Virus record (IMG/VR): IMGVR_UViG_3300030116_000235
Location: 1 to 32,924 of that record
DNA from: a virus
DNA length: 32,924 nucleotides
Reading direction: 5' to 3' (one strand)
This document shows positions 21,143 to 32,924 of this stretch, piece by piece. How positions within the stretch are numbered: position 1 is the stretch's first letter; every line of letters begins with the position of its first letter. Position numbers and translations under genes: made by a program. Below the pieces are notes generated by a model. That model had not been told where the DNA came from. It did no database searches and was given only the letters and a program-made list of their open reading frames with translations.

Positions 21143-21144
21143 AT

Positions 21145-21327
21145 ATGATTGAAATGAACATTACATCTGCACAGTACGTCACCAATGTAAATGACGAAAA
21201 TTGCAGCATTACAGCGACTATTGATGGCGAAACAATGTCTGTACCTCTTGCATCTGGCAACCGCCACTACGACGAAATCATGCGTCAGGTCGAAGCCGGT
21301 ACGTTGACAATCGCTGACGCCGAATGA
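21145..21327 (+). CDS. Small fibre-associated protein
   Basis: This 60-residue protein reads as a beta-hairpin (CSITATIDGETMSVPLASGN) followed by a helix (YDEIMRQVEAGTLTIADAE). This module is common as a small protein or C-terminal domain after phage fibre genes. A role in fibre assembly or as a fibre-associated subunit is likely but not proven. GGAG is about eight bases upstream of the ATG, inside the end of the preceding gene. Its stop overlaps the next start (ATGA). Confidence 0.7.
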   Translation: MIEMNITSAQYVTNVNDENCSITATIDGETMSVPLASGNRHYDEIMRQVEAGTLTIADAE

Positions 21328-21497
21328 TGAGCAAGCCTACCGTCACCTCAGTCAAAGCCGAACTAGACACCCATGAGGCGGTCTGTGCAGAGCGTTGGAA
21401 GGAAACGATCCTGCGGATTAAGCGGATTGAGGCAATCATGATTGGCACTGCTGGCACAACAATCTTGTTACTTGTAGGGATCATAGTTAATGGATGA
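21324..21497 (+). CDS. Small tail-anchored membrane protein, XhlA-like
   Basis: This 57-residue protein has a charged helical N-terminal part (KAELDTHEAVCAERWKETIL, RIKRIEA) and one C-terminal membrane segment (AIMIGTAGTTILLLVGIIV). That arrangement matches XhlA-like and related holin-associated proteins. It overlaps the upstream gene by four bases and the downstream gene by four. It opens the lysis cassette and probably inserts in the inner membrane. The second Met, directly after the first, is an equally possible start. Confidence 0.72.
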   Translation: MMSKPTVTSVKAELDTHEAVCAERWKETILRIKRIEAIMIGTAGTTILLLVGIIVNG

Positions 21498-21682
21498 TCC
21501 ATGTGTTCTTGCTGTTTGTGTATGTAGGTGTTGGTGAGGATAAGCGGCTCACTAGCAATGATATGTATTTCCGCAGTGTTGATGACTGCGTGTACTTTGC
21601 CCAGAGACTGCACAAACAAGGCAACAACATCACTGCTTATTGTCTGCCAAAGCTGGTAGATAAAGATGTAAGGACATACTGA
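21494..21682 (+). CDS. Small conserved phage protein with N-terminal hydrophobic segment
   Basis: This 62-residue protein starts with a short hydrophobic stretch (MIHVFLLFVYVGVG) that could be a signal or membrane segment. A soluble part follows with RLTSNDMYFRSVDDCVYFAQRL and two Cys residues (in DDCVYF and AYCLPK). I know similar small proteins from marine phages, near lysis or tail genes; their function is unknown. With two Cys and a possible export signal it might act in the periplasm. It overlaps both neighbours (ATGA at the start, TGATG at the end). Confidence 0.65.
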   Translation: MIHVFLLFVYVGVGEDKRLTSNDMYFRSVDDCVYFAQRLHKQGNNITAYCLPKLVDKDVRTY

Positions 21683-22113
21683 TGCTTGCCGAACTCGCCG
21701 CAGCCAATGCCGCCTTTGCAGTTATTAAACAAGCTGTTTCCAATGGCAAGGAAATAGCTGCTGCCGGAAGTGCGATTGCTTCTTTTGTTGGTGCGAAAGA
21801 AAAGCTAGAACGCAAAGCCCAGCAGAAAGGCGGCGGCTCTGATCTTGAAGAGTTTTTGGCACTAGAAAAAATCAAAGAACAAGAAAAGCAACTTAAAGAG
21901 TTGATGATCTACACAGGCCGTCCCGGCATGTGGAATGACTGGCAGCGTTTCCAAGCAAAAGCTAGAGTAGCAAGGCGTGAAGCAGAGGTGGAAGCCGCAG
22001 CCAAACGTAAGAAAATCGTTGAAGGTACGATCATCGCGTTGTTTGTGCTGTGCTGTTTGGCTGTGCTAGGAGCATTGATTATGTTGATACTGCACCATCA
22101 AGGGAGGTTGTGA
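21682..22113 (+). CDS. Lysis-region protein with one C-terminal membrane segment
   Basis: This 143-residue protein has an Ala-rich N-terminal amphipathic part (NAAFAVIKQAVSNGKEIAAAG), a long charged coiled coil (about residues 35-110) and a single membrane segment near the C-terminus (GTIIALFVLCCLAVLGALIMLIL). The WNDWQRFQAKARVARR sequence precedes the membrane segment. Proteins of this form occur in lysis regions of diverse phages; the function is not known to me. A spanin-like or holin-regulating role is possible. Its start and stop are both coupled with the neighbours by TGATG. Confidence 0.65.
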   Translation: MLAELAAANAAFAVIKQAVSNGKEIAAAGSAIASFVGAKEKLERKAQQKGGGSDLEEFLALEKIKEQEKQLKELMIYTGRPGMWNDWQRFQAKARVARREAEVEAAAKRKKIVEGTIIALFVLCCLAVLGALIMLILHHQGRL

Positions 22114-22316
22114 TGGAAGTGACTATGGAGCGGTTCTTGGCATGGAAGATCCTGCCAAGACTTATGATGTTTATCATGACGTTCATGTATATTAGAGTCA
22201 TTGAATGGGGAATGAGCCTTGACGATTTGTCTACACAGCAAAGCGCAATGATTAGCGTGGTCAGTGGCGCTATGACTGGCGCTTTTGCCGTGTGGCTTGG
22301 GAGTGAGAAGAAATGA
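22113..22316 (+). CDS. Putative small holin (two membrane segments)
   Basis: This 67-residue protein has two hydrophobic stretches, ILPRLMMFIMTFMYIRVI and MISVVSGAMTGAFAVWL, separated by a polar turn, and ends in Lys-Lys, the plan of class II holins. GGGAGG is well placed before the ATG at 22113; the open frame extends upstream to 22050 but lacks such a site. Holins form the membrane lesion that releases the endolysin, which here lacks an export signal. The protein encoded next is also holin-like, so one of the two may be an antiholin. Confidence 0.7.
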   Translation: MEVTMERFLAWKILPRLMMFIMTFMYIRVIEWGMSLDDLSTQQSAMISVVSGAMTGAFAVWLGSEKK

Positions 22317-22690
22317 TTCAAGCGCTGATTCCAATAGTAGGTGAACTAGCTGGTGGGTGGCTAAAGGGCAAGGCTGCTGAGAAGGCAGCACAAAGCCAAG
22401 TAAAGGTTGCACGAGCCGAGGCCGAAGCCGAGGTTATGCGGGTTGCTGCTACGCATGAGGCGGGGTGGGAGCGTGTCATGGCCGAAGCCAGCAAGGATAG
22501 CTGGAAGGACGAGGCATGGACTATATTATTTATAGTGATCATTGCGATGTGTTTCATACCGCCGTTGCAGCCATATGTGGAGCGTGGCTTCACTGCGCTA
22601 GAGTCAACACCACAGTGGTTCCAGTGGGCAATGTACGCATCGATAGCGGCCAGCTTTGGACTCCGTGGTATCAAGGGGATCAAGAAGTGA
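22313..22690 (+). CDS. Holin of the 3TM GTA-type family
   Basis: This 125-residue protein resembles the holin family found in gene transfer agents and alphaproteobacterial phages (GTA_holin_3TM). Features are an N-terminal amphipathic segment (IPIVGELAGGWLKGK), a charged helix (RAEAEAEVMRVAATHEAGWERVMAEA), SKDSWKDEAW and then two hydrophobic helices (TILFIVIIAMCFIPPL and WAMYASIAASFGLRG). It overlaps the upstream gene by ATGA, and the endolysin start overlaps its stop (GTGA). It is the most probable main holin. Confidence 0.75.
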   Translation: MIQALIPIVGELAGGWLKGKAAEKAAQSQVKVARAEAEAEVMRVAATHEAGWERVMAEASKDSWKDEAWTILFIVIIAMCFIPPLQPYVERGFTALESTPQWFQWAMYASIAASFGLRGIKGIKK

Positions 22691-23139
22691 ACGTAGAAAA
22701 ACTAATCAATGACTTGGAAGTGGATGAAGGTTGTAAGTTTGAAATCTACAACGACCATCTAGGATACCCAACATTTGGCATCGGCCATCTGATTACCGAA
22801 GATGATCCAGAACACGGCCAGCCTCTCGGCACCCCGATTTCTGGGGATCGGGTGCGAGAGGCTTTCGAGAAAGATGTAGACCGTGTGCGTATGGATTGCT
22901 TGAAGCTGTATCCAGATTTTACAAGCTTGCCTGACGATGCCCAGCTTATCATTGCAAACATGATGTTTAATATGGGGCTGCCGCGTTTGTCTAAGTTCAA
23001 GAAGATGAAGGCGGCTGTCGAGGCAGGTGATTGGGATGAGGCGGCCAATCAGATGGAGGCTTCACGCTGGTTTCGGCAGGTGCCGAATCGCGCACAGCGT
23101 TTGATTGATCGGATGCGTCTTCTCGCTGTTCCTGTGTAA
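22687..23139 (+). CDS. Endolysin, T4-type lysozyme (glycoside hydrolase 24)
   Basis: This 150-residue lysozyme cleaves the glycan strands of peptidoglycan. Catalytic residues are spaced exactly as in T4 lysozyme: E14, then D23 eight residues on, then T29 five further, within DEGCKFEIYNDHLGYPTFGIGH. Later parts of the family are present (FNMGLPRLSKFKKM, then RWFRQVPNRAQRLIDRM). I chose GTG 22687, which overlaps the holin stop; the frame upstream of it is open only by chance. There is no signal peptide or signal-anchor, so it depends on the holins encoded upstream. It is the last late gene and faces the early arm. Confidence 0.93.
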   Translation: MNVEKLINDLEVDEGCKFEIYNDHLGYPTFGIGHLITEDDPEHGQPLGTPISGDRVREAFEKDVDRVRMDCLKLYPDFTSLPDDAQLIIANMMFNMGLPRLSKFKKMKAAVEAGDWDEAANQMEASRWFRQVPNRAQRLIDRMRLLAVPV

Positions 23140-23266
23140 GCATCTCAATGGCTGCCTGTTGAAACCGGGCAGCCATATGCATCATTTGGATTGGTGTCTG
23201 TGGCAGGGTGTGCAGCTTGCCATCTACACTTACAATGATGCCGTCGTTTCTAGGTACAATAATCAT
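22997..23266 (-). CDS. Small protein overlapping the endolysin gene on the opposite strand
   Basis: This 89-residue open frame starts at an ATG (23266) with GGAG six bases upstream. The first part reads MIIVPRNDGIIVSVDGKLHT, LPQTPIQMMHMAARFQQAAIEML, a plausible small beta-plus-helix protein. After about residue 43 it runs antisense into the last 143 bases of the lysozyme gene, where it becomes Pro/Ser-rich and looks unselected. It lies after the minus-strand terminator at 23279-23310, so expression would need readthrough. I recognise no family. Confidence 0.5.
   Translation of the reverse strand: MIIVPRNDGIIVSVDGKLHTLPQTPIQMMHMAARFQQAAIEMLTQEQREDASDQSNAVRDSAPAETSVKPPSDWPPHPNHLPRQPPSSS
23148..23176 (+). 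terminator. Hairpin after the endolysin gene, possible late terminator
   Basis: ATGGCTGCC (23148-23156) pairs perfectly with GGCAGCCAT (23168-23176) around an 11-base loop, eight bases after the lysozyme stop. No good T-tract follows, so it may need Rho or serve as a 3' end stabiliser. It lies inside the opposite-strand small gene. Confidence 0.45.
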
Positions 23267-23278
23267 TGTTGTCTCCAT

Positions 23279-23310
23279 AAGAAAGGCGGACAAGCCGAAG
23301 CCTGTCCGCC
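23279..23310 (-). terminator. Intrinsic terminator of the minus-strand recombination operon
   Basis: On the minus strand an 11-pair stem (GGCGGACAGGC with GCTTGTCCGCC, one G-U pair) closes on the tetraloop TTCG and is followed by TTTCTT. It stands about 40 bases after the stop of the last clear operon gene, which is the expected place. Confidence 0.85.
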
Positions 23311-23347
23311 AGTTTGCTAGGAGGATCGGAGAACCAAAACCGACCTG

Positions 23348-23740
23348 CTAGAAAGGTATATCATCATCGTCCTCTTGTGAAGCAGCTTCTTGCTGTGGCT
23401 CTGGTTCTTGCTGCTGTTTCTGTTTTTCACTTACTTTGAGTGACATGAACTTGCGTCCGTCTTTTTCGCCACGCCAACCAGCAATGCGCCAGTCTTGATG
23501 CAAGCCGTCGAGTGGGCCTGAGTAGTCTGGCGCTTTGTCGTTGCCGTTCTTGTCGTTGCTGAACAAGACACCAATCTTCTGGAAGATCTCAAGGCGCTTC
23601 TCGCCTGTGTTTGTTTCGGCAGTGACAATGACAACCTGCATGTCCTCGCCCATGACGTTCAGCTTGCCATTCAGCAGCAGACGTTGTTCGGGCCAAGGCT
23701 TGCCAGCGATGCCGGAGTTTCTGTTGTCGTATTCAGCCAT
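23348..23740 (-). CDS. DUF736-like protein with SSB-type acidic C-terminus
   Basis: This 130-residue protein has a core resembling the DUF736 family: KIGVLFSNDKNGNDKAPDYSG near residues 58-78, then WRIAGWRGEKDGRKFMSLKV. A Gln/Glu-rich linker follows, and the chain ends DDDDIPF. That ending matches the acidic tip of bacterial single-stranded DNA-binding protein, which recruits repair and replication enzymes. I infer that it acts as the phage SSB in the recombination module. The ATG at 23740 has AGGAG eight bases upstream; a longer frame to 23797 has no ribosome site. Its start overlaps the upstream gene by eight bases. Confidence 0.8.
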   Translation of the reverse strand: MAEYDNRNSGIAGKPWPEQRLLLNGKLNVMGEDMQVVIVTAETNTGEKRLEIFQKIGVLFSNDKNGNDKAPDYSGPLDGLHQDWRIAGWRGEKDGRKFMSLKVSEKQKQQQEPEPQQEAASQEDDDDIPF

Positions 23741-24116
23741 TGGGCTTTTCTCCTGTGATGATTTGCATAGCAGTAGAATTGTTATGCGGGTTGTCAATCT
23801 TGTATTCGGTTGGTGCGCGTCCGCGCGTTTTTACAGGCAAGCCTGCTTTGCGTATGTTCTTGATGTAGGTTCTGACTGACTCTTGTGTGTAGCCAAACTT
23901 GGCCTTAATATCGTCAACCGTCCTGTATCTGGTAAGCATGTACTGAGCCATGCCAGTCGGATACCAGTCTGATCTGCGTTGTCTGGTATCTGATACAGGC
24001 TTGTGAATTACAACTGATGGTTCCTGTTTTGGAACTGTCAGCATGTCTTCAATCATTTTGTCGATACGTGCGAGTCGATACTCGATCTTGTCGAGTCGTT
24101 TATTGATTCCTAGCAT
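23733..24116 (-). CDS. Winged-helix/HTH DNA-binding protein in the recombination operon
   Basis: This 127-residue protein has an N-terminal coiled helix (INKRLDKIEYRLARIDKMIEDM) that could dimerise. A polar linker follows, then a helix-turn-helix domain at about residues 62-105 (DDIKAKFGYTQESVRTYIKNIRKAG) ending in a short wing (TRGRAPTEYKI). It is probably a sequence-specific DNA binder of the operon or origin; the target is unknown. I place the start at 24116, where TAATG couples it to the annealase stop and GGAGG is well spaced. The ATG at 24122 is too close to that site. Confidence 0.7.
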   Translation of the reverse strand: MLGINKRLDKIEYRLARIDKMIEDMLTVPKQEPSVVIHKPVSDTRQRRSDWYPTGMAQYMLTRYRTVDDIKAKFGYTQESVRTYIKNIRKAGLPVKTRGRAPTEYKIDNPHNNSTAMQIITGEKPNG

Positions 24117-24556
24117 TACCATGCCTCCTCTGTTGGCTTGTCGCTCTTCTTGGCGACTTTGGTTACTTTGGGTGTAGATACACTGGCTGCATTGCCATCG
24201 TCATCCTCTGACGGAAGACCAAAGGCTGCTTGCAAGCCGTAACGCTTGGCGTATGTGATGCCGCTGCCCATCTTCTGCGGGTCTGTGTTGTCCTTGGTCA
24301 GCACAGGTGTGCGACCAGTGACACACTCACCAGACTCGTGCATCAGTATTGTGGTTACAAAGATGTGATGCTCATCGAAGTCAACAAGCTGGGTGAATGT
24401 CAGCCCAACCTTGCCAGCTTCTGCGCGGACAGTCTCAATGACTTCCTCTAGGCTGGCATACTTGGACTTGAAGAAGGGATTATCTGCACCCTTCTTAGCT
24501 GCTGCCCCACTGTCGTGGAACTTGATCAGCGCTACTGCAAGGTTCTTAGTCGTCAT
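24116..24556 (-). CDS. erf: Erf-family single-strand annealing protein
   Basis: This 146-residue protein matches the ERF family of phage annealases, which pair complementary single strands in recombination and genome circularisation or concatemer formation. Clear family features are NPFFKSKYASLEEVIETVR (about 26-44), GLTFTQLV, and DPQKMGSGITYAKRYGLQAAFGL with the following DDDGN. The C-terminal tail is Lys/Thr-rich. It is shorter than P22 Erf (204 residues), as many family members are. AAGGAG precedes the ATG. It overlaps the exonuclease gene by 11 bases, the usual exonuclease-annealase pairing. Confidence 0.9.
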   Translation of the reverse strand: MTTKNLAVALIKFHDSGAAAKKGADNPFFKSKYASLEEVIETVRAEAGKVGLTFTQLVDFDEHHIFVTTILMHESGECVTGRTPVLTKDNTDPQKMGSGITYAKRYGLQAAFGLPSEDDDGNAASVSTPKVTKVAKKSDKPTEEAW

Positions 24557-25349
24557 AGTGGTTCTCCTTTACTGCGATACGAAGTGATCCGCGCTTGTCG
24601 CGCTTGATGGTGAGGAGATCGCAGTACACCTCTCGCTCATCATCTCCTACCATTGCCTTGAGATCAGCCTTGGCAGATTCAAATAGCTGTGCATTGCCTT
24701 GTTGTTCGATGTAGTCATGGCACCGGCTGATGAACTCGTTGTCACCAGAAGCATCGCGCTTGACCATATCGTTGACAGGAATCTTGTCTTGGTTTGTCGA
24801 GGCAACATGATTGCCATACACCTCGTCAGCTTCTGCTGGTGGTGTATCATCTACAACAAGTTGCCAGAACGTTTTGAGATGCACACGCATCCGCTCAACG
24901 TAATCATCAGCACGAGACACACGCACTGACTCCCAGCGTCTATTGCCGAACAAGACTGACAGATAACAATCTGTGTAGTTTCCAATCCACATATAGAACT
25001 GGATCTGTGGCATGTACTGTTTGAGTACATTGTCGATGCTGTTGTTGTCGTAAGTATGCTTGCACTCGATTGGCGTGACGCCCTCGACAAGACCATCAAG
25101 CATCCCTTTGCATGGGATGCCATCTACATCCAGCTTGATCTCATGCTGGCTGGAATTTACTTGCTTTCCTGTCTGCTGCCGAAACCAGTTGATGTTGAAC
25201 TGTTCGGTGAATGAGCCAAGTTGTACCGGCAATACATCTGATAGATCGTCAGGCTTCTTGCGTCCTGTCTTCTCTTCCCAGAGTGATATCCAGTCACCTT
25301 CCATGATGCGGCGCATGTCGCTGCCGCCGATAAATCCTATGCGGTTCAT
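24546..25349 (-). CDS. YqaJ-like recombination exonuclease
   Basis: This 267-residue protein belongs to the YqaJ/lambda-exonuclease group, which resects double-stranded DNA to give single strands for the annealase. It has FIGGSDMRRIMEGDW (the GGSD segment) near the N-terminus and LGSFTEQFNINWFRQQTG with the conserved Glu. The PD-(D/E)XK active site follows as GMLDGLV, then PIECKHT (the E-x-K). It also has QIQFYMWIGNYTDCYLSVLFG, typical of the family. AAGGAGAACCAA stands before the ATG. It is followed directly by the Erf gene, so both act together. Confidence 0.92.
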   Translation of the reverse strand: MNRIGFIGGSDMRRIMEGDWISLWEEKTGRKKPDDLSDVLPVQLGSFTEQFNINWFRQQTGKQVNSSQHEIKLDVDGIPCKGMLDGLVEGVTPIECKHTYDNNSIDNVLKQYMPQIQFYMWIGNYTDCYLSVLFGNRRWESVRVSRADDYVERMRVHLKTFWQLVVDDTPPAEADEVYGNHVASTNQDKIPVNDMVKRDASGDNEFISRCHDYIEQQGNAQLFESAKADLKAMVGDDEREVYCDLLTIKRDKRGSLRIAVKENHYDD

Positions 25350-25373
25350 TTGGTTCTCCTTTGCATAGATAGT

Positions 25374-26012
25374 CTACTGCGAACTTGCAGTTAGTGCAAC
25401 CTTCTTGGCTGTTAGTGCCTCCATTAGTTTGCGACGTTTCTCAACACGCCACTCAATGTGTTTGTGGAACTCGGCGTATGCCGGCCAGAAGGTGCACGAC
25501 TCCCCGACCTTCTGGACGGCATACAGCACGATGTCCGCAGGATACTTTATCAACTGAGCAGTGAGTGACTTGATCCTGATTGCCTGATCTTTGGCAGTCT
25601 CTCCTGCTGGCTTCACCACAAGCGTTGCCAGCATGGTTAGCTGCTCACCTATCTGTTTGTCAGGAAGGGGCGTCAGTGAGGCTTGTACGGCGTTTAAAGC
25701 ACGGTCTAGCGATGCTTCGTCAGTCACATGCACATCGTAACGTAGCAATGTGATTTGAACATCGCCATCACGAGGGAATCGTGTGCGTTCTACACTAGAA
25801 ATCGTCAAGCCCGGTAATGAGTCCAGCGAAGTGACTAGATTCTTGTCTACCTCTGCCGGATCTCCGACCTCGACCAGACGAGCCACTGCTCGTTGCTGCT
25901 GTTCCCCACTCAACGGCGTTAGTACACCATTTTTTGTAGGCAAGGTGTGGTCGCTTGAATGTGTTGCCCTTTGACCTGTGGTGATCGCGGAACCTAGCGG
26001 CTTCAATGTCAT
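25374..26012 (-). CDS. Protein of unknown function, possibly replication-related
   Basis: This 212-residue protein has a middle section (residues about 70-125) of strands and helices. Its C-terminal region (LTAQLIKYPADIVLYAVQKVGE, SCTFWPAYAEFHKHIEWRVEKRRKLMEAL) resembles proteins near replication or recombination genes in alphaproteobacterial prophages. It could be a helicase-loader-like or other replication accessory factor, but I cannot name the family with confidence. The ATG has GGAG seven bases upstream. Its first 218 bases overlap the resolvase gene in another frame, so its first 72 codons are shared. An operator-like palindrome overlaps its stop. Confidence 0.65.
   Translation of the reverse strand: MTLKPLGSAITTGQRATHSSDHTLPTKNGVLTPLSGEQQQRAVARLVEVGDPAEVDKNLVTSLDSLPGLTISSVERTRFPRDGDVQITLLRYDVHVTDEASLDRALNAVQASLTPLPDKQIGEQLTMLATLVVKPAGETAKDQAIRIKSLTAQLIKYPADIVLYAVQKVGESCTFWPAYAEFHKHIEWRVEKRRKLMEALTAKKVALTASSQ
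25376..25391. promoter_or_regulatory. Operator-like site, third copy (degenerate)
   Basis: ACTGCGAACTTGCAGT differs from the promoter operator at 29198-29213 at two of 16 positions and keeps the TGCAGT arm. It overlaps the stop codon of the unknown gene and lies 27 bases before the exonuclease start. No promoter was recognised beside it, so function is uncertain. Confidence 0.35.
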
Positions 26013-26427
26013 GATCTATCTCCACTCCTAGCAAGTGATTCAATATTCCTTTTTGTTTTCCTGTCGGTTTCCAATCTTCTGGTAACTCGGACTTAGTTAC
26101 TCGTTTCTTTTTGGTTAGTAACGGAGCAATGTCACGCTCAAACACATCACCGTCAAAGATGACAAGCGTCTTTGGTGTGCCTGCTTTGCGTTTGTAAAAT
26201 GCAACGTCACGCACAACGGTGAATGGATTGGGGAAGTTTGACTTGTCCCGGTACTTTACTTCGACCACCAGTTCCAGTCGTCCGAGTTTCCAGATGATGT
26301 CGCCGGAGTATTCTCCGCCGAGTGCTCCTGATAGGGGCTGGCGTTTGGCTTGGAAGCCAAGTTCTTTGAGCCAGTCGACAAACCACCTTTCGTGGTAGTT
26401 TCCTTTGTTGCGATTCTTGTTTGCCAT
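25795..26427 (-). CDS. Hjc-like Holliday junction resolvase / PD-(D/E)XK nuclease
   Basis: This 210-residue protein has an N-terminal nuclease domain of the archaeal Hjc type, with catalytic residues in order: E13 in NKGNYHERW, D43 in GEYSGDII, and E56 and K58 in LVVEVKYRD. Such enzymes cut branched DNA, here probably recombination intermediates or concatemer branches before packaging. The core ends by about residue 135. Residues 139-210 overlap the next gene and are Arg/Gly/Ser-rich (SSGSSGRGRRSGRGRQ), unlike a folded domain. AGGAGAACCA stands before the ATG. Confidence 0.82.
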   Translation of the reverse strand: MANKNRNKGNYHERWFVDWLKELGFQAKRQPLSGALGGEYSGDIIWKLGRLELVVEVKYRDKSNFPNPFTVVRDVAFYKRKAGTPKTLVIFDGDVFERDIAPLLTKKKRVTKSELPEDWKPTGKQKGILNHLLGVEIDHDIEAARFRDHHRSKGNTFKRPHLAYKKWCTNAVEWGTAATSSGSSGRGRRSGRGRQESSHFAGLITGLDDF

Positions 26428-26588
26428 TGGTTCTCCTGATAGCAGTCAAGGCAGATTGTGTACCATGACGGCGGGTTGATCGATGCTACTGGACAGACAA
26501 ACCAAGGTGTCACTGCACCACATGCTTCGCATGTTTGTGCTTTGCCCTGATTAAGTTTCTTTTTTGTGCGTCTGTTTTTTGCTGGCAT
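26256..26588 (-). CDS. Small zinc-finger protein
   Basis: This 110-residue open frame starts with a basic tail (PAKNRRTKKKLNQGK), then a likely zinc ribbon with C20-x2-C23 and C46-x2-C49. Residues 54-110 run over the first 57 codons of the resolvase in another frame and are Thr/Ser/Lys-rich, so only the first half looks selected. I see no strong ribosome site at the ATG, which lies inside the 3' end of the upstream HTH gene. It may bind nucleic acid; the family is not recognised. Confidence 0.55.
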   Translation of the reverse strand: MPAKNRRTKKKLNQGKAQTCEACGAVTPWFVCPVASINPPSWYTICLDCYQENQWQTRIATKETTTKGGLSTGSKNLASKPNASPYQEHSAENTPATSSGNSDDWNWWSK

Positions 26589-26784
26589 CGGTAATGTAAT
26601 CGAACACTAGTTTTGCGGTTTCGTAGCGTAACTCCCTGCCTTGATTGGCTCTGTAATAGGTTGAGTCTCGAACACCAGCTTGAAGGAACGCATCCTTGAG
26701 TGATATTCGGTGGCGTTTTGCTCTGTTTTTGAGCGTTGTCATGTAGCTTTTCATGCAGGGATAGTCCTGCATACTTGCAGTCAT
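26551..26784 (-). CDS. Small HTH DNA-binding protein, possible regulator
   Basis: This 77-residue protein contains a helix-turn-helix of Cro/CI-like form: TTLKNRAKRHRISLKDAFLQAG followed by VRDSTYYRANQG and RYETAKLVFDYI. The layout fits a small phage repressor. Its first codons (Met-Thr-Ala-Ser-Met-Gln) are formed by the palindrome at 26767-26780, a copy of the promoter operator at 29198. If that site is used, the Met at 26754 may be the true start. Self-regulation is therefore suggested, but this is inference. It lies one base after the winged-helix gene in the same operon. Confidence 0.7.
   Translation of the reverse strand: MTASMQDYPCMKSYMTTLKNRAKRHRISLKDAFLQAGVRDSTYYRANQGRELRYETAKLVFDYITDASKKQTHKKET
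26767..26780. promoter_or_regulatory. Operator-like palindrome at the start of the HTH gene
   Basis: CTGCATACTTGCAG is identical to the core of the operator at 29198-29213. It overlaps codons 2-6 of the HTH gene as annotated. I found no good -35/-10 pair next to it, so it may control an unseen promoter or act as a roadblock. Confidence 0.45.
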
Positions 26785-26785
26785 G

Positions 26786-27142
26786 TCAATCTTCTTCGAC
26801 GTAGAACTCTTTGGCCCACATGATTAGCTGCTGTCGACCAGATTCGCCTTTGCGTTTGCGATGGTCGGTAAAGATCAAGCCTTTCTCTTTGAGTTGCTTG
26901 TATCTGGCAGTGATTGTGCTGTATCGATAGCCGGGAAGGATGCGCAGCACATCGTCAGATATGCATCCATTGTCTGCAAAGCTGGTGATTGCAGCTAATA
27001 CAATACGCTCCATCTTACTGACATCAAGCTGCTCGGCAGCATCATGGCTGGTGCTTGGGTCGTCACGACGAGCCAACTTAAATGCTGGTGTCTCTGGAAA
27101 ATCTGGCTGGTCTAGTCCCAGCTTGTCAAAAAGATCGTTCAT
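26786..27142 (-). CDS. Winged-helix DNA-binding protein of the RRxDPSTSH type
   Basis: This 118-residue protein belongs to a group common in alphaproteobacterial phages. It has ARRDDPSTSHDAAEQL near residue 24, then a winged helix (MERIVLAAITSFADNGCISDD, YSTITARYKQLKEKGLI) and the closing RKRKGESGRQQLIMW wing. These are taken to be DNA-binding regulators or replication accessory proteins; the exact role is unknown. AGGAGAACCAATCA stands before the ATG. Its first 17 bases overlap the upstream small gene, and the HTH gene follows after one base. Confidence 0.78.
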   Translation of the reverse strand: MNDLFDKLGLDQPDFPETPAFKLARRDDPSTSHDAAEQLDVSKMERIVLAAITSFADNGCISDDVLRILPGYRYSTITARYKQLKEKGLIFTDHRKRKGESGRQQLIMWAKEFYVEED

Positions 27143-27305
27143 TGATTGGTTCTCCTAGTTGCTTGTTGATAAAGATAACACAGGCATCGTGCTTGTATTC
27201 TAACCTGCGCCATTCTTGTTCGGTGTAGTGATCACGATCTTTGAGTTGTATCTCAAAGTGTGTGGCGATTGAGTCCATCAAGTAATGATACATCTCGTAT
27301 CGCAT
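27126..27305 (-). CDS. Small hypothetical protein
   Basis: This 59-residue, helix-rich, charged protein (MRYEMYHYLMDSIATHFEIQ, YTEQEWRRLEYKHDACVIFI) has no recognised family. The start at 27305 is favoured because TAATG joins it to the stop of the upstream gene and GGAGAACC stands in front. The ATG at 27317, with AAGGAG upstream, is also possible and would add four residues. It lies in the run of small early genes, many of which in phages take over host functions. Confidence 0.65.
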   Translation of the reverse strand: MRYEMYHYLMDSIATHFEIQLKDRDHYTEQEWRRLEYKHDACVIFINKQLGEPINERSF

Positions 27306-27517
27306 TAGGTTCTCCATTCTGTTCTCCTTGCTTCCGGCCATACAGAATGTTTTCCGAGTGGTGGATTTTTAAGTACAGCTTTTCTGATGTGTACCTCGCT
27401 GCCTTGTGTAAGCCCTCCTTGATATGGCTCCTCTTGAAACCTGAGATCTATCGGGCCGTTAAACATGGTGTCAAAATCTGGGTCTATTACGAGACCGTAC
27501 CAGTAATGGTATGCCAT
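27305..27517 (-). CDS. Small hypothetical protein
   Basis: This 70-residue protein is rich in aromatic and charged residues (MAYHYWYGLVIDPDFDTMFN, LRFQEEPYQGGLTQG) and has no recognised family. GGAG lies about eight bases before the ATG. It overlaps the zinc-ribbon gene upstream by 31 bases and is coupled to the next gene by TAATG. The tight packing and good ribosome site are the main support that it is real. Confidence 0.6.
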   Translation of the reverse strand: MAYHYWYGLVIDPDFDTMFNGPIDLRFQEEPYQGGLTQGSEVHIRKAVLKNPPLGKHSVWPEARRTEWRT

Positions 27518-27741
27518 TCGTCTAACTCCATTGCAGTGTTGGCGGCATCCACTTCATCGGTGGCCCACACTTGTTGGTAGACTATGTATGATGTCATCAC
27601 TTTGAGATCGTCACTATCGCAGCAGGGGCAGAAGCCCCCGCTGTCTTCGCTGTAATGTTTGAGATCATGATAGTGTTCTATGTGTGCTTCGCAATCTCGG
27701 CACTCGTAGAACTCACGGCTCAAGGTGTGGAATGTAGTCAT
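27487..27741 (-). CDS. Small protein with zinc-ribbon-like cysteines
   Basis: This 84-residue protein has C14-x2-C17 (YECRDCEAHIEHYH) and a second pair in GGFCPCCDSDDL, a spacing that fits a zinc ribbon. A C-terminal part follows with WATDEVDAANTAMELDEWHTI, which looks like a small beta-alpha unit. The family is not recognised. GGAGGAG stands four bases before the ATG. Its start overlaps the preceding gene by 29 bases. Confidence 0.65.
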   Translation of the reverse strand: MTTFHTLSREFYECRDCEAHIEHYHDLKHYSEDSGGFCPCCDSDDLKVMTSYIVYQQVWATDEVDAANTAMELDEWHTITGTVS

Positions 27742-27928
27742 CCAACTCCTCCATTGGGTTGGCTGCTTCCCATGCTTTGGTCGCGCGATCTATAAATTTC
27801 TTGCGATCAAAGCGTGGGTTGGTTGCAGCTAACTTGTCAGCCATGTCCTGTATTTTTGCTGGCCACGGCAAAAGTGGTGCCACATTGTCTGCAATGTATT
27901 CAAAGTGGCGTTGCTGCATAAGCGACAT
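27713..27928 (-). CDS. Conserved small phage protein of unknown function
   Basis: This 71-residue helical protein begins MSLMQQRHFEYIADNVAPLL and continues WPAKIQDMADKLAATNPRFD, KKFIDRATKAWEAANP. I recall similar small proteins in early regions of other phages, always without known function. AAGGAGG is well spaced from the ATG, which overlaps the upstream stop as TAATG. Confidence 0.7.
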   Translation of the reverse strand: MSLMQQRHFEYIADNVAPLLPWPAKIQDMADKLAATNPRFDRKKFIDRATKAWEAANPMEELDDYIPHLEP

Positions 27929-28137
27929 TACTTGACCTCCTTGATTGATGGTTCGATTGGTTCTGCAACGAATCTGTCAAGCGACTCGTGGTATTTGCTT
28001 TTGATTCCGTTGAGTGTGTACAGAGCGTGTTCTACCTCATAACGAAAGGCATCTTTGCCTGTGTCATTGATGTTGTCTCTGGCTCTGTCGAGGAGGCCAA
28101 TGGCCCCCTCTACGAGTACGATGAATGGTGTTGACAT
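27928..28137 (-). CDS. Small hypothetical protein
   Basis: This 69-residue protein appears all-helical (EGAIGLLDRARDNINDTGKD, YEVEHALYTLNGIKSKYHES) and has no recognised family. AGGAG lies five bases before the ATG, just after the stop of the DUF932 gene. Its stop is shared with the next start (TAATG). It belongs to the main minus-strand operon. Confidence 0.65.
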   Translation of the reverse strand: MSTPFIVLVEGAIGLLDRARDNINDTGKDAFRYEVEHALYTLNGIKSKYHESLDRFVAEPIEPSIKEVK

Positions 28138-28145
28138 ACTGTCTC

Positions 28146-28997
28146 CTATGCAAGGTGCCAGTTGGATGGCTTGAGTGCTTTGATAAGCAGGTTCTCACGG
28201 TTGCGTCTGGCAACGTGTGGTGTGTTGGTGTCACCAGTATGCGTAGCCCAATGTGTGCAAGCGTTGTACAAAGCCCACTTGTTGCTGCCGAGTTGAACTT
28301 TTTCTTTGTTCCACTGGCGGCAAAGCTGCTCGTAACGACGCTCGTTGATCTTGATGCTTGCATCCTGTGTTGGGTAACGACACAGCTTCATCTTGAAAAA
28401 CAAGAAAGCTGTTTCGTCATCGACGCTGGTTGTCATCCAGCTTTTGTACACATCTTTGTCCTGCATGAATGTCTCAAGGCCAGCTACAATCTTGGCTGTG
28501 CTGCCTTTGACATTCACATTGGTAGTATGCTTGGCCCATGTGTTAGCTACAGTCATGGCATTGGTGCAGCCATTCTTGCACCAGAGTCTGTGACCACGGC
28601 TGGTCTGTTGGAACGCCCAGCTACCATCGTAGCTGTTGTAAAACAGGATCTCGTGTTTGATGACATCGCCAACGTCAGGTTCGATGACTAGATCGTTGAA
28701 CAAGAATCGACCACGCATCTTGGCTCCGCCGTCGAGTGAGTCGATTGTCAAGTCATAGTCACGGCTGATGCCTGACTCATGCACTGCATCGACCATCGCC
28801 TCAACGACAGTCATGTTGGTGATTGGCTTGTATTTTTTTCCATGAACACCCAGCACTTGATTGGTGTCAGTGCGCACGATTGCACGCGCCATATTTTCTG
28901 GCACCTCAAGATTGTCGGTGTAGATTGACGATGCGTGTAAGCTGCACATCTCAACTGGGAAATGCCACAGGTCTTCTTTGACAATAGTTCCGTCCAT
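28146..28997 (-). CDS. DUF932 family protein
   Basis: This 283-residue protein matches DUF932 (phage/plasmid-like protein), found in many phages and plasmids, usually among early or replication genes; its molecular function is not established. Recognisable parts are AIVRTDTNQVLGVHGKKYKPITN near residue 39, MVDAVHESGISRDYDLTIDSLDGGAK, GDVIKHEILFYNSYDGSWAF, and RLWCKNGCTNAM with two Cys. The C-terminal third has NKWALYNACTHWATHT, typical of the family. AAGGAGAACCAAA stands before the ATG. It is the second gene of the main operon. Confidence 0.88.
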   Translation of the reverse strand: MDGTIVKEDLWHFPVEMCSLHASSIYTDNLEVPENMARAIVRTDTNQVLGVHGKKYKPITNMTVVEAMVDAVHESGISRDYDLTIDSLDGGAKMRGRFLFNDLVIEPDVGDVIKHEILFYNSYDGSWAFQQTSRGHRLWCKNGCTNAMTVANTWAKHTTNVNVKGSTAKIVAGLETFMQDKDVYKSWMTTSVDDETAFLFFKMKLCRYPTQDASIKINERRYEQLCRQWNKEKVQLGSNKWALYNACTHWATHTGDTNTPHVARRNRENLLIKALKPSNWHLA

Positions 28998-29015
28998 TTT
29001 GGTTCTCCTTGTTGG

Positions 29016-29186
29016 CTACTCAGCCATTGTGCGGACAATGCCGCCGATGAAGGCGACACATATGCCGCCGATAAGGCATGCGATCTGAAAGAAGAAGGCG
29101 CTATCATCCATTGGCTCTGCCATTGATGTGCCAAAAATCAGAGCGAACATGCCGATTCCGATTAGAAAATTTGATAGAAGTTTCAT
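29016..29186 (-). CDS. Small membrane protein with two hydrophobic segments
   Basis: This 56-residue protein has two likely membrane segments, FLIGIGMFALIFGTSMA and FFFQIACLIGGICVAFIGGIV, separated by a short acidic turn (EPMDD). GAGGAG stands six bases before the ATG, so translation is likely. It is the first gene after the promoter at 29211-29238 and so should be among the first expressed. The family is not recognised. An early membrane peptide could affect host membrane functions or exclude other phages, but this is speculation. Confidence 0.7.
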   Translation of the reverse strand: MKLLSNFLIGIGMFALIFGTSMAEPMDDSAFFFQIACLIGGICVAFIGGIVRTMAE

Positions 29187-29197
29187 TTTTTCTCCTC

Positions 29198-29213
29198 ACT
29201 GCATACTTGCAGT
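29198..29213. promoter_or_regulatory. Palindromic operator at the main early promoter
   Basis: ACTGCATACTTGCAGT has six-base inverted arms (ACTGCA/TGCAGT) around TACT. It overlaps the downstream end of the -10 box and the expected transcription start of the minus-strand promoter, the classic place for a repressor. Its core recurs at 26767-26780. Confidence 0.6.
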
Positions 29214-29238
29214 ATAGCAGTATTTGTTGTGGTTGCAA
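29211..29238 (-). promoter_or_regulatory. Sigma70-type promoter of the main minus-strand operon
   Basis: On the minus strand TTGCAA (29233-29238) and TATACT (29211-29216) are separated by 16 bases. A TGC directly before TATACT forms an extended -10. It lies after the terminator at 29290-29320 and about 30 bases before the first gene of the operon. Confidence 0.7.
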
Positions 29239-29289
29239 CGCAACTTATATGGCCGGGCAACCGGCGCTGGCAGCGTGGTACCGAGCATG

Positions 29290-29320
29290 AAAAAAGCCCC
29301 GCAGCCGAAGCTGCGAGGCT
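29290..29320 (-). terminator. Intrinsic terminator after the first early gene
   Basis: On the minus strand the 11-pair stem AGCCTCGCAGC/GCTGCGGGGCT (one T-G pair) closes on TTCG and is followed by six T's. It starts 11 bases after the stop of the gene at 29332, separating it from the main operon. Confidence 0.9.
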
Positions 29321-29331
29321 GTGTCAGCGTG

Positions 29332-29757
29332 TTAGGCTGACTTGGTGAAGAAGGAACCTGCATCCGCAGTGGCTGCTGCGTTCTGCTTGGCAGCGTCGAC
29401 TTCATCAGGGAACATCTGCTGCTGAGCTTGCTTGAAGTATGCAAGCATCTCTTCAGCAACGTTCTGCTGATCGTTGTGCCATTCCCAGTCACGCTGCCAT
29501 TGCAGAAGCTGACCGGCATCGTAAGCTGGCGCACCCTCAAGGTCGCCATGCTTGTTAGCGTTCATCTCAACGCCTTTGTCGAAGATGTCTGTCTTGACTT
29601 TCTCTTTCCTGTCAATCGACCACTCAAGGTGTTCGATGAACTTCTTTACATGATACTGTACTGATCTGTTTGTTGTTTTGTTCTGTTCAACAGCAGCAAG
29701 AGAAAAGATGTTGGTCAGGTTCTTGGCAAGTCCATTTACGTTTGATTGCTTTGACAT
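29332..29757 (-). CDS. First early gene, hypothetical protein
   Basis: This 141-residue, polar, helix-rich protein (QYHVKKFIEHLEWSIDRKEK, QLLQWQRDWEWHNDQQNVAE, EMLAYFKQAQQQMFPDEVD) has an Ala-rich C-terminus ending FFTKSA and no family I recognise. It stands alone between the divergent control region and a strong terminator, so it forms its own transcription unit. AAGGAG is six bases before the ATG, and a hairpin lies just upstream in the leader. Its place suggests a very early or highly expressed protein. Confidence 0.75.
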   Translation of the reverse strand: MSKQSNVNGLAKNLTNIFSLAAVEQNKTTNRSVQYHVKKFIEHLEWSIDRKEKVKTDIFDKGVEMNANKHGDLEGAPAYDAGQLLQWQRDWEWHNDQQNVAEEMLAYFKQAQQQMFPDEVDAAKQNAAATADAGSFFTKSA

Positions 29758-29776
29758 TAGTCACTCCTTAGCAAAG

Positions 29777-29795
29777 AGGCGAGACAATCCCGCCT
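29777..29795 (-). other. Leader hairpin before the first early gene
   Basis: On the minus strand AGGCGGGA pairs with TCTCGCCT (one G-T pair) around a three-base loop, followed by CTTTGC and the ribosome site. It could stabilise the mRNA or weaken upstream transcription. Confidence 0.4.
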
Positions 29796-29863
29796 TACGA
29801 ACAACCCGCAATCACAGCAGCCTCTGCAATCAAGTCAGGCTCGGCCGGCATGCCAGTTTGATC

Positions 29864-29940
29864 CAGCCCGCTTGCGCGGATGCGCACCGGCCCGCTTGCG
29901 CGGCAGCGCAAATAAAAGCGCGGGCCAATAAGCGCGGGCT
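29864..29940. repeat. GC-rich direct and inverted repeat cluster
   Basis: GCCCGCTTGCGCGG occurs at 29866-29879 and 29890-29903 (period 24), each followed by a shared GCGCA. AAGCGCGGGC occurs at 29916-29925 and 29930-29939 (period 14). GGCCCGC and GCGGGCC arms can pair. By count 41 of 60 bases in 29881-29940 are G or C. Confidence 0.75.
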
Positions 29941-30201
29941 GGGCAGCAAACTGAGCATGGGCGAGACTTGATACGCGCGACCAGCGCGGGTGCAGAAGAG
30001 GCCGCTGTGATGCGTTGGTTGTTCTTGGCGGATTGGGTCGTTTCTTTGGTTAGGAGTGCTATGTCAATGCTAGCAAACGTGGACTTGGCAAGGTTCTGCC
30101 AACAGCTTTTCTCGAAGTCTGATGTTGTTGTGGGGCATGATAATACATGAGGTATATCCCCCCTATCCTGCGCGTGTTGCAATGCGCCGCGCAACGTCCG
30201 T

Positions 30202-30231
30202 CAGTGCAGCAGTCTACAGACTGCTGTGCTG
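30202..30231. promoter_or_regulatory. Long palindrome in the control region
   Basis: CAGCAGTCT (30207-30215) and AGACTGCTG (30218-30226) form a perfect nine-base dyad around AC. With two mismatches the arms extend to 14 bases each. It lies in non-coding DNA and resembles a binding site for a dimeric regulator. Confidence 0.55.
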
Positions 30232-30384
30232 TCGCAACGGCCGCTGGCGCGTACATAGGCCACGCGCACAGAACAGATGTTGAAGGGCTGAGTGAGATAT
30301 ATTTGCATTTAGTGGGTTGACATGGGGTTGACAGATCGGCAAGTCTGGGGGGGAACACAGGGGGGGCAACAGTCAGGTTTGAGT

Positions 30385-30756
30385 ATGACAGTAGCTAAGA
30401 TACTAACCGATAAACAGATGGCTCTGGTGGATACGCTCGTAGCTGATGGGTGTAGCATCAAGGAAGCGGCTGGCAAAGCCGGATACGCAGAGGGCGAAGC
30501 CGGGAGAGTGAGTGCCAGTAAGGCTTTGCGACAGCCGCATGTGCAGCAGTACATGATGACAAGAGTCGGTGAGAGTCTTGGACTACATGCTACGACGGCT
30601 GCTGCAAAGCTGCTTAACTTAGCGCGAGGCGCTAAGTCCGAGTATGTCCAGCTAGAAGCTAGCAAGGACATACTCGATCGTGCTGGCTTCAAGCCAGCCG
30701 ATAAGCAGATGCACTTGCATGCTGGGGAAATTAAGGTGAGCATAGACCTGACATAG
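30385..30756 (+). CDS. terS: Terminase small subunit (likely)
   Basis: This 123-residue protein resembles small terminases, which recognise phage DNA for packaging. The N-terminal part reads ILTDKQMALVDTLVADGCSIKEAAGKAGYA, the LT.KQ..F...L..G....EA...AGY pattern of the family with a helix-turn-helix. Later parts are ASKALRQPHVQQYM and SEYVQLEASKDILDRAG, also typical. I prefer the ATG at 30385 since the family motif begins right after it. The longer frame from 30322 would translate two G7 runs. It lies about 2 kb upstream of the large subunit, with small genes between. Confidence 0.8.
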   Translation: MTVAKILTDKQMALVDTLVADGCSIKEAAGKAGYAEGEAGRVSASKALRQPHVQQYMMTRVGESLGLHATTAAAKLLNLARGAKSEYVQLEASKDILDRAGFKPADKQMHLHAGEIKVSIDLT

Positions 30757-30828
30757 TGGGGGTGCCCCAAAAAGTGTGGCTATGCCAGTGTGACGTGGTA
30801 CCACACAGACATTAGAGGCGAAAAAAGC

Positions 30829-31518
30829 ATGTGTACAGGCGGAGACCCCGGCGGGGGAACATCAGAAAATTTAAACCCACCGAGGGTCCGCAAGGGTGCT
30901 GCTAGGGATTTTACTGGCTCTGCGTCTGCTAAGCAGCGTGAGGTTGGCGTAAGTTACAAACCTGCTAGCGGTCTTAGCCCTGCTGCTGCTCGTGCGATTA
31001 CTGGCAGTGACACTGCGGCAGCTAATCTTGCTGGTCGTTCTGACATTACCAAGGAGCAGCTTGGTGATTTACAGACTAGGGCTACTGTAGGCACTAGAGG
31101 TTTGGGCAAGGCTGGCACTGTTGGCGGTATATTGAATACGATTGGCACTGCTGCTGCGTCTCGTTTGATGGACAAGTTGAAGAGTGACACACCGACTATT
31201 GATAAGTTGGGCGATAAGCCTAGCTACAGTGTGAAGCCTGTGACGACCAAGACTGGTTCTATTGTTGGCGTTACCGAGCCGGGGCCTTTTGGTGGCCGGG
31301 TTTACTCTGGGCGTCCTGACATGAATCCTTTTGCTCCTAAAGAGGAAAGAGATGATACGCCTCCTCCTGCTCCCAAGCCCAAGCCCAAGGTTGAGGAGCC
31401 TGTTGTAGAAGTTGCTCAGATGGGTGGCGGTACTTTGACGACGAATCGTCGGCGTGGTGGCGGACGCAGGACTGCTTTTGGCACTCGTCAGAGTCTTGTG
31501 AATCTTAGGAACGTTTGA
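30829..31518 (+). CDS. MCxGG-type protein, probable virion accessory
   Basis: This 229-residue protein starts Met-Cys-Thr-Gly-Gly and is rich in Gly, Ala, Pro and Arg. The middle (about residues 60-120) could be helical (LSPAAARAITGSDTAAANLA). A Pro/Lys linker follows (PPPAPKPKPKVEEPVVE), and the C-terminus is Arg/Gly-rich (TTNRRRGGGRRTAFGTRQ). The MC.GG start and the RR-GGG tail echo the protein at 1528 on the other side of the terminase. It is probably a head-region protein of largely disordered form. The chosen ATG has GAGG upstream. Confidence 0.68.
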   Translation: MCTGGDPGGGTSENLNPPRVRKGAARDFTGSASAKQREVGVSYKPASGLSPAAARAITGSDTAAANLAGRSDITKEQLGDLQTRATVGTRGLGKAGTVGGILNTIGTAAASRLMDKLKSDTPTIDKLGDKPSYSVKPVTTKTGSIVGVTEPGPFGGRVYSGRPDMNPFAPKEERDDTPPPAPKPKPKVEEPVVEVAQMGGGTLTTNRRRGGGRRTAFGTRQSLVNLRNV

Positions 31519-31859
31519 TGGCAAAGACACCGGCATGGCAACGCAAGGAAGGACAGAACCCTCAAGGTGGCCTCAACGCTGCCGGACGCGCATCATACAA
31601 TCGGGAAACCGGCGGCAGACTCAAGGCACCAGTCAAGGCCAAGGCGGATACACCGCAGAAGAAGCGGCGCAAGGGCAGCTTCTTGGTAAGGATGGGCAGC
31701 GCCAAGGGGCCGCTGTACAGGGATGGGAAGAAGACCAGATTGAAGCTCTCACTAGAGGCATGGGGGCATCGTGGTGACAAGGCCAGTGCTGTACGCAGGG
31801 GTCGTTCTTTGTTAGCCTCTTACCAGCGTTCCAAAGAGAAGGGGAAAGCCAATGCCTAA
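31518..31859 (+). CDS. Basic DUF6321-like phage protein
   Basis: This 113-residue, very basic protein begins AKTPAWQRKEGQNPQGGLNA, followed by GRASYNRETGGRLKAPV, a pattern I recognise from DUF6321-type proteins. The later section RKGSFLVRMGSAKGPLYRDG is also family-like. The function is unknown; high Lys/Arg content suggests nucleic acid binding. The start ATG at 31518 overlaps the upstream stop as TGATG. It is the first of four small basic proteins before the large terminase. Confidence 0.75.
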   Translation: MAKTPAWQRKEGQNPQGGLNAAGRASYNRETGGRLKAPVKAKADTPQKKRRKGSFLVRMGSAKGPLYRDGKKTRLKLSLEAWGHRGDKASAVRRGRSLLASYQRSKEKGKANA

Positions 31860-32004
31860 CGTAATGGGAAAGAAATACGCCTACACTGCTGCGGGAAAGA
31901 AGAAAGCCAAGAAGGCTGCTCGTTCTTTGCTAACTTCTGCACAGAAGAAGCTGCCGCAGGATCTGCAAGATAAAATTGTTAAGGCCAAGATGCGCAGTGC
32001 CTAA
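31852..32004 (+). CDS. Very small Lys/Ala-rich basic protein
   Basis: This 50-residue protein reads MPNVMGKKYAYTAAGKKKAK and continues with an Ala/Leu/Lys helix. Small proteins starting MP.V..KK.AYT..G are common in the terminase regions of marine phages, with no known function. The start overlaps the previous gene by eight bases, with GGGGAAAGCC upstream, and the stop lies within the next gene. It may bind DNA through its basic helix. Confidence 0.68.
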   Translation: MPNVMGKKYAYTAAGKKKAKKAARSLLTSAQKKLPQDLQDKIVKAKMRSA

Positions 32005-32260
32005 GTATCAGTTTAGAGACGGCACTGCGTATGATGGGCCGTATTTTATTATGCCGGACGGCAGGGTTTTGTCTGGTGCTACTTATACTCGTGACTCTCA
32101 GCGTCTAGTGGAGATAGAAGATGGCAGTAAACGAAGCGGGGAACTACACGAAGCCAGCGTTGAGGAGGCGTCTGTTCAACCGCGTAAAACGCGAGGGAAA
32201 GGGCGGAAGGCCGGGTCAGTGGTCAGCAAGAAAAGCGCAAAGGCTAGCCCTGCTGTATAA
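31997..32260 (+). CDS. Small hypothetical protein with overprinted C-terminus
   Basis: This 87-residue frame probably starts at GTG 31997, overlapping the previous stop. The first part (PKYQFRDGTAYDGPYFIMPD, GRVLSGATYTRDSQRLVEIE) is a convincing small beta-rich domain with Gly/Tyr turns. After about residue 41 the frame overlaps the DUF5872-like gene for 140 bases and becomes Lys/Ser/Arg-rich. The first 42 residues are probably the functional unit. The family is not recognised, though similar short proteins occur in marine phages. Confidence 0.6.
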   Translation: MPKYQFRDGTAYDGPYFIMPDGRVLSGATYTRDSQRLVEIEDGSKRSGELHEASVEEASVQPRKTRGKGRKAGSVVSKKSAKASPAV

Positions 32261-32288
32261 AAAGGCTGGCGGTGGGTACACGAACTAA
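32121..32288 (+). CDS. Small basic DUF5872-like protein
   Basis: This 55-residue protein carries the pattern of the DUF5872 group: YTKPALRRRLFNRVKREGKG, then GRPGQWSARKAQRLALLYKKAGGGY. The GG-PGQWSARKAQ core is distinctive. GGAG lies seven bases before the ATG, confirming the start. Its function is unknown; a basic helical protein of this sort may bind DNA. It is read in another frame from the end of the preceding gene. Confidence 0.75.
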   Translation: MAVNEAGNYTKPALRRRLFNRVKREGKGGRPGQWSARKAQRLALLYKKAGGGYTN

Positions 32289-32329
32289 TATTCGTATATT
32301 CCAACTCTAAGCACAGGAATAATGGAATA

Positions 32330-32581
32330 ATGGCACTAGCGGCTTCACAGAAATCCTTGAGAGCATGGACACGCCAGAAATGGCGCACCAAGTCAGGGAA
32401 GCCTAGCACTCAGGGCAGCAAGGCTACTGGTGAGCGGTATCTCCCTGCTGCCGCCATCTCTGCCCTGAGTGACGAGGAGTATCAGCGCACTAGCCGGAAG
32501 AAACGTGCTGCCCTACGTCGAGGCAAGCAGTTCTCAAAGCAACCGAAGAGCATTGCTAAAAAGACTGCGAGTTACAGATGA
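32330..32581 (+). CDS. Small basic conserved phage protein
   Basis: This 83-residue protein reads MALAASQKSLRAWTRQKWRT, then SGKPSTQGSKATGERYLPAAAI, SDEEYQRTSRKKRAALRRGKQF and SKQPKSIAKKTASYR. I recognise this pattern from proteins encoded just before terminase genes in several marine and T4-like phages; the function is unknown. Its basic nature and Trp-rich start suggest nucleic acid contact. AGGAATAATGGAATA lies before the ATG. Its stop overlaps the next start (ATGA). Confidence 0.75.
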   Translation: MALAASQKSLRAWTRQKWRTKSGKPSTQGSKATGERYLPAAAISALSDEEYQRTSRKKRAALRRGKQFSKQPKSIAKKTASYR

Positions 32582-32772
32582 GTTTTCTACACACGCTCAA
32601 ACCAGAAGAGCGAGAGATCCTGCGCAGGGTGGTGAAAAAAGTACACCTTGTTCACCATCCAGAAGAGTTTTGTACTGATCGTGAAGCCGACAAGGTAATC
32701 TCTGTGATTGGCCCAGAGGTGGTTGAGCGGATGATTAAGTTTGGCAAGGATCAGAAGGTTGACCAACTTTAG
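32578..32772 (+). CDS. Small conserved protein directly before the large terminase
   Basis: This 64-residue protein (FLHTLKPEEREILRRVVKKV, CTDREADKVISVIGPEVVER, MIKFGKD) is mainly helical and has no family I can name. Similar small genes stand immediately upstream of the large terminase in other short-tailed phages. It starts by ATGA overlap with its neighbour, and the terminase TTG start lies 14 bases before the end of its stop codon, so the whole set is translationally coupled. Confidence 0.7.
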   Translation: MSFLHTLKPEEREILRRVVKKVHLVHHPEEFCTDREADKVISVIGPEVVERMIKFGKDQKVDQL

Positions 32773-32924
32773 CTATAAGCCTGACGGCAAAGTCCTCAAA
32801 GCATTTATGAAAGACGATATGTTCTTTCGTGGCATTAGGGGGCCGGTAGGTTCTGGAAAATCGGTTGCTTGCTGTGTTGAAGTTTTTCGCCGTGCATTAC
32901 AACAGAAGCCAAACAAGGATGGTA
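32759..32924 (+). CDS. terL: Terminase large subunit, N-terminal part (continues at base 1)
   Basis: This is the start of the gene whose main part is 1-1498. TTG at 32759 begins Met-Thr-Asn-Phe-Ser-Tyr-Lys-Pro-Asp-Gly; a stop at 32732 limits the frame upstream. AAGGA lies eight bases before the TTG. It overlaps the preceding small gene by 14 bases. The Walker A GPVGSGKS is within this piece. From 32782 on it repeats the left end with synonymous differences only. Confidence 0.88.
   Translation, partial: MTNFSYKPDGKVLKAFMKDDMFFRGIRGPVGSGKSVACCVEVFRRALQQKPNKDG
32782..32924. repeat. Right copy of the terminal overlap repeat
   Basis: These bases match 1-143 except at five third-codon positions. 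Reading frame and gene content continue without break from 32781 to base 1, so the genome is circular or circularly permuted, of about 32781 bases. Confidence 0.9.

Follow-up and report, generated by a model that had tools for sequence, protein, structure and literature searches.

A conserved palindrome as the likely operator of a Cro-type autorepressor at three early promoters of a phage without CI

A palindrome at an early promoter of an uncultivated marine phage is very probably the operator of a Cro-type autorepressor, which would shut down three early promoters in a phage that has no detected CI. This reading was reached from the sequence and its comparison with relatives. The window, that is, the whole stretch of DNA analysed, is the record IMGVR_UViG_3300030116_000235, positions 1 to 32,924 (32.9 kb). 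Its two ends (1-143 and 32782-32924) form a 143-bp overlap with 138/143 identity, and they map to adjoining places in relatives. Because of this overlap, the window is taken to be near complete, with little missing, and the genome in the record is probably near-complete and either circularly permuted or redundant. No match to the integrase (PF00589), S24 (PF00717) or serine recombinase (PF00239) families was found across the window. The initial annotation had described a genome without integrase, and the missing PF00589 match together with the overlapping ends bears this out. There was no Rfam match across the window and no DNA match between its early region and annotated phages. By portal protein, Pelagibacter phage Hodr is the isolate closest to the window, at 60%.

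The leader promoter P1 lies on the minus strand at 29211-29238. It consists of TTGCAA (29238-29233), a 16-nt spacer and TATACT (29216-29211), with TGC before the -10, so that the TG stands one base from it. The extended -10 promoter that had been claimed is therefore present, on the minus strand, and it is kept in diverged leader contexts. An intrinsic terminator closing the preceding gene (29295-29320, minus strand, with an 11-pair stem and a T run) lies just upstream, and a separate leftward transcription unit therefore begins at P1. The palindrome ACTGCATACTTGCAGT at 29198-29213 has zero mismatches and is the putative operator O1 (minus-strand form ACTGCAAGTATGCAGT). As first described, it covers the expected start site (~29204), but it does not follow directly after the -10. 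Instead, it overlaps the -10 by three bases, ACT being common to both. The first gene after O1 (29016-29186, minus strand) encodes a 56-aa small protein, hydrophobic by eye. This gene is conserved or replaced in relatives, and O1 is retained either way, as an exact copy or a central variant at the same place. The second gene of the leftward early operon (28146-28997, minus strand) encodes a DUF932 protein (PF06067, E 3.7e-18). Taken alone, neither element is above chance: 10 promoter-like sites were found in 20000-32924 compared to 11.2 expected, and 22 dyads like CTGCA-N4-TGCAG with at most two mismatches compared to 31.9 expected. As a separate observation, GC-rich inverted repeats (gcccgcttgcgcgg...) are clustered at 29868-29945, between the leftward operon and the terminase small subunit gene, and these could be a bidirectional terminator or an origin.

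The specific 16-mer, with three mismatches or fewer, occurs three times in the window against 0.62 expected, and 3 of 100 shuffles reach this number. Two of these copies had been overlooked in the initial annotation, one at 26766-26781 (1 mismatch) and one at 25376-25391 (2 mismatches). Similarly, ACTGC-N6-GCAGT with at least 9/10 arm matches is found exactly three times in the 32.9 kb, compared to 0.83 expected by composition, and all three copies are at gene fronts. The putative operator O2 (26766-26781, minus strand) lies in the promoter of a cro-like gene. A -35 box, TTGACA (26784-26789, minus strand), stands two bases before it, a layout also seen in relatives, and the corresponding -10, GACTAT (26761-26766), is weak. 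O3 (ACTGCAAGTTCGCAGT; 25376-25391, minus strand) is upstream of an exonuclease gene and overlaps the stop of the preceding gene. The -35 box TTGCAC (25394-25399, minus strand) stands two bases before O3, with a candidate -10, TAGACT, at 25371-25376. Behind O3 is the gene for a YqaJ-family exonuclease (24546-25349, minus strand; PF09588, E 2.8e-8), followed by that for an ERF single-strand annealing protein (24116-24556, minus strand; PF04404, E 1.2e-24). Since the -10 boxes at O2 and O3 are poor and the genes there abut, the promoters at these two sites may be weak or may not exist.

The cro-like gene (26551-26754, minus strand) encodes a 67-aa, predicted four-helix helix-turn-helix (HTH) protein. 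The longest ATG open reading frame, of 77 aa, starts at 26784 and overlaps the operator. In relatives the HTH family starts at MKSY, so the gene in the window is probably the shorter one. The model of the 67-aa protein has a pLDDT of 88 and four helices. Its structural matches are singly weak (best Foldseek E 0.26, Z at most 7.4) and are mostly Cro/C1-type HTH regulators; they include 434 Cro (2cro), with TM scores of 0.62/0.64 and a Z of 5.1. The 67-aa window protein itself has no Pfam or PHROG match, and HTH_3 is matched at E 0.5 or below in 7 of 28 family members, the best at 0.0021. No PDB sequence matched the HTH-family profile A2, and the search of annotated phages gave one weak match, to a Latilactobacillus phage (E 7e-3). 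The initial annotation saw no obvious repressor in this genome; the missing repressor is probably the gene at 26551.

Relatives were collected through the HTH protein (47 loci), through a profile search (80 of 272 relatives kept) and through the DUF932 gene (20 loci); the relatives of the HTH protein reach down to ~38% identity. Seventeen of 19 related records were examined, with G018 and G019 left out. Of 21 protein clusters formed at 80% identity, 20 have a dyad with at least 8/10 arm matches no more than 110 nt before the HTH gene, compared to a mean of 1.48 and a maximum of 6 of 21 clusters in 300 dinucleotide-shuffle sets. By the position of this dyad, a putative operator stands in the HTH gene's own promoter, as expected of a cro gene. 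The exceptions among the clusters are L095, which falls below the 8/10 cut, and L030, which has one broken arm. The alignment of sites gives CTGCA-N4-TGCAG. CTGC and GC do not vary (21/21) and the 5' flanks are near random, the arms being partly selected by the search; at positions that were not scored, A is found at position 6 in 17/21 sites and T at position 11 in 16/21. A TTGACA-like -35 (at least 5/6) occurs within 6 nt 5' of the dyad in 15/20 clusters, compared to 12% of random positions. L107, whose best dyad in the upstream count is a CI-side one at -102, was omitted from the -35 count (20 of 21 counted), and its cro-side site was placed by hand in the site alignment. Because the -35 ends 6 nt or less from the dyad, the operator in most cases takes up the spacer between -35 and -10 in the HTH gene's own promoter. 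A chance origin of the sites is rejected by these comparative tests, though a single site is not above chance. The comparison establishes the three putative sites, their places and their linkage to the HTH family. Conservation of the palindrome in related phages had been named beforehand as one point on which the proposal depended, and it was found. The idea of a repressible promoter for shutting off early genes is well supported by comparison.

The layout of leader, cro and exonuclease sites is present in 8 of 18 records of about 29-37 kb, the window included. Close relatives have all three sites at the same places, and G012-G015 and G017 have fewer sites at the expected places. The leader site is retained where the promoter and first gene differ. 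In one such set, the -10 TATACT overlaps the first arm. In a second set, the orientation of the six central bases is reversed, and CATACT inside the operator can serve as the -10, with TTGATT 16 nt before it. Where a 10/10 site precedes a ribosome site and ATG, exonuclease-type sites included, 23/33 distinct contexts score at least 8/12 for a promoter with its -10 overlapping the operator, a count maximised over three spacers and two -10 placements and made without a shuffle control. Just upstream of cro in the window is a winged-HTH-like gene (26786-27142); in L002, L004 and L005 a different sequence is found directly before cro, and the place of this gene looks like a swap point.

Viral contigs scanned blind for the exact 16-mer gave 57 stretches, 38 with the HTH gene, 7 with other family genes and 12 with neither; 45/57 belong to this phage family. 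The 12 remaining stretches, of about six contexts, are in the unrelated contigs L161, L171, L174, L181, L185 and L212, and these matches are probably chance. In isolates without the HTH gene, sites of at least 9/10, wherever placed, number 0 in Hodr, 2 in MEP301 and 1 in Vibrio 434O48-1, which are weak negatives. Neither the HTH gene nor the site was found in Pelagibacter phage Hodr. Hodr (L061) carries at 15419-15955 an XRE domain like the one that follows cro in relatives, fused to an apparent replication protein.

A CI-like gene was detected by profile at ten loci in two clusters (L099, L100, L115; and L102, L104, L107, L110, L111, L112, L114). In L115 and L107, this gene and the HTH gene diverge, with dyads between the two. 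L107, L102 and L104 have three dyads there (7 to 8 of 10 arm matches), and L115 and L099 have one clear dyad (9/10) and a weaker one. The CI-like protein of L115 matches HTH_3 and S24 weakly and gives a UmuD-like hit (E 7.9e-5); Pfam gave no match for that of L107. The L115 record also carries an integrase (E 4.1e-26). Among the 20 records tested, there were one integrase, one sub-threshold S24 match and no serine recombinase. The genes downstream in CI-bearing relatives follow the order of the window (HTH, zinc-type protein, resolvase, 212-aa protein, exonuclease), which puts the window gene where cro would stand in a replication module that lacks CI and integrase. No cI was found opposite it with shared operators, and the searches for an integrase, S24 domain, serine recombinase or CI-like repressor, the marks of temperate immunity, gave no match in the window. 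Since no CI-like gene was found there, the window's HTH gene is described as a relative of cro genes, predicted to work like Cro, and not as half of a cI/cro switch. The HTH protein is kept by many related marine phages, a few exceptions having lysogeny partner genes, and is a likely switch protein. In portal and capsid trees, G016, the sole record with CI and integrase, falls among records without them. With a single such tip, loss of CI cannot be told from gain.

These relatives give some ground for another explanation, in which the phage is temperate or superinfection-controlled and an unrecognised CI, or the CI of a related resident prophage, uses the operators in lysogeny or immunity. L107- and L115-type relatives do place a CI-like gene opposite cro with the same kind of dyad, and the integrase of the L115 record fits as well. 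We consider this explanation unlikely. No integrase, S24 or serine recombinase was detected in the window, whose overlapping ends leave little missing, and a CI-like relative was found neither in the window nor in 16 of 17 related records. On genome contigs, one strict peptide pattern found only two loci with the HTH family, both in MAGs or metagenome bins, so prophage carriage in sequenced bacteria is not supported.

Slightly less probable still is that another phage protein binds the operator. The candidates are a 118-aa winged-HTH-like protein (26786), the product of 23733, and a second XRE protein, encoded after cro in relatives. All three are small, DNA-binding-like and from the same operon. 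The protein at 26786 matches phrog_1123, a family of unknown function, that at 23733 has weak HTH matches, and the XRE protein adjoins cro in most relatives. However, by tblastn (E 1e-3) 26786 is present in 10/17 related records and 23733 in 6/17, leaving 7/17 and 11/17 without them, and G005, G006 and G016 lack them yet have the sites. The search for the XRE gene was negative in the window and in G001-G004, and each of these carries all three sites. The 67-aa protein alone is common to all records, though the records were chosen by this protein. Of the three binders proposed in the initial annotation (26551, 26786 and 23733), only 26551 is favoured, since its own promoter carries the putative operator throughout the family. 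An RNA-level element, in which a hairpin ACUGCA-AGUA-UGCAGU before the ribosome site controls translation, is highly improbable: the O1 stem would stand 11 nt before the start codon, but the RNA would lack one arm because the predicted start is within the palindrome, the site before cro is usually within the -35/-10 spacer and hence untranscribed from the cro promoter, and the arm core is constant where centre and flanks vary.

For the preferred Cro-type autorepressor, we infer binding, dimerisation, repression and timing from the arrangement of sites and genes. Early in infection, the host RNA polymerase would transcribe the leftward early operon from P1 (29238-29211) and would also use two internal promoters, one before cro and one before the YqaJ exonuclease and ERF genes. 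As Cro accumulates, its dimer would bind CTGCA-N4-TGCAG at O1, O2 and O3. Bound Cro would lie over the -10 and start site at O1 and between the -35 and -10 at O2 and O3, and polymerase would be excluded. All three promoters, including that of cro itself, would then be lowered together. With no CI partner involved, negative feedback would thus shut off the early genes after a delay.

Lambdoid Cro proteins (lambda, 434, P22) are small, single-domain HTH proteins with an operator at their own promoter; the window protein is predicted to be of this kind and has a candidate operator at its own promoter. In temperate relatives of the window, the HTH gene also lies opposite a CI-like gene with putative operators between. 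In contrast, the window has no CI and no tripartite operator but three single candidate operators over 3.8 kb at three promoters, and its protein lacks a Pfam or PHROG match of its own. Aca1 is a small HTH protein that represses its own expression through a palindrome in an early operon's promoter. Bound to its palindromic DNA target, it is among the structural matches of the window protein; it differs in its operator, and no anti-CRISPR gene was recognised in the window. Mycobacteriophage D29 is, like the window phage, a lytic phage near temperate cousins. The passages describing it present a phage that derives by deletion from a temperate parent, is obligately lytic and is homoimmune with L5 and StarStuff (PMC5712189, PMC6550527). 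Its repressor gene is broken and these passages mention no Cro, whereas the window phage has an intact Cro-like gene. The "lysogeny replacement module" of Streptococcus thermophilus phages, in the text available, comprises presumed remnants of a lysogeny region beside replication genes (PMC5601072); these phages are unrelated to the window phage. The virulent S. aureus phage SA97 was rejected as a precedent, as its description says that it lacks both cI and cro. The available text of the MEP301 paper contains nothing on operators.

Cro repressors are already known, as are lytic phages that derive from temperate ones and are still homoimmune with them (D29, as described in parts of PMC5712189 and PMC6550527). 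No account of this HTH family or its operator was found in the open-licence literature. Within that literature, what appears to be new is a predicted Cro circuit that a deep lineage retains in the absence of CI and whose single operators are distributed over several promoters. Databases leave this protein family unannotated, and a function for it is proposed here; the marine phage lineage, as yet uncultivated, gains a concrete, testable scheme of gene control from sequence alone. The series from cI/cro switch to Cro-only phages is a natural one for studying the loss or gain of lysogeny. More tentatively, a large marine podovirus-like lineage may have a stand-alone, CI-less Cro circuit in which a single autorepressor, acting through dispersed single operators, times the leader, cro and recombination promoters, with the prophages of its cousins as an immunity barrier against lytic relatives. 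The dyad is shared with the temperate cousins, whose CI would on that account also silence the lytic phages. If true, natural prophages would bar lytic relatives that never lysogenise. Also among the relatives, the temperate record G016 (L155, L156) has seven sites, at 20461, 22936, 23866, 23907, 24914, 28108 and 30450, with one close pair and one site near the integrase, which suggests a wider regulon in the temperate form.
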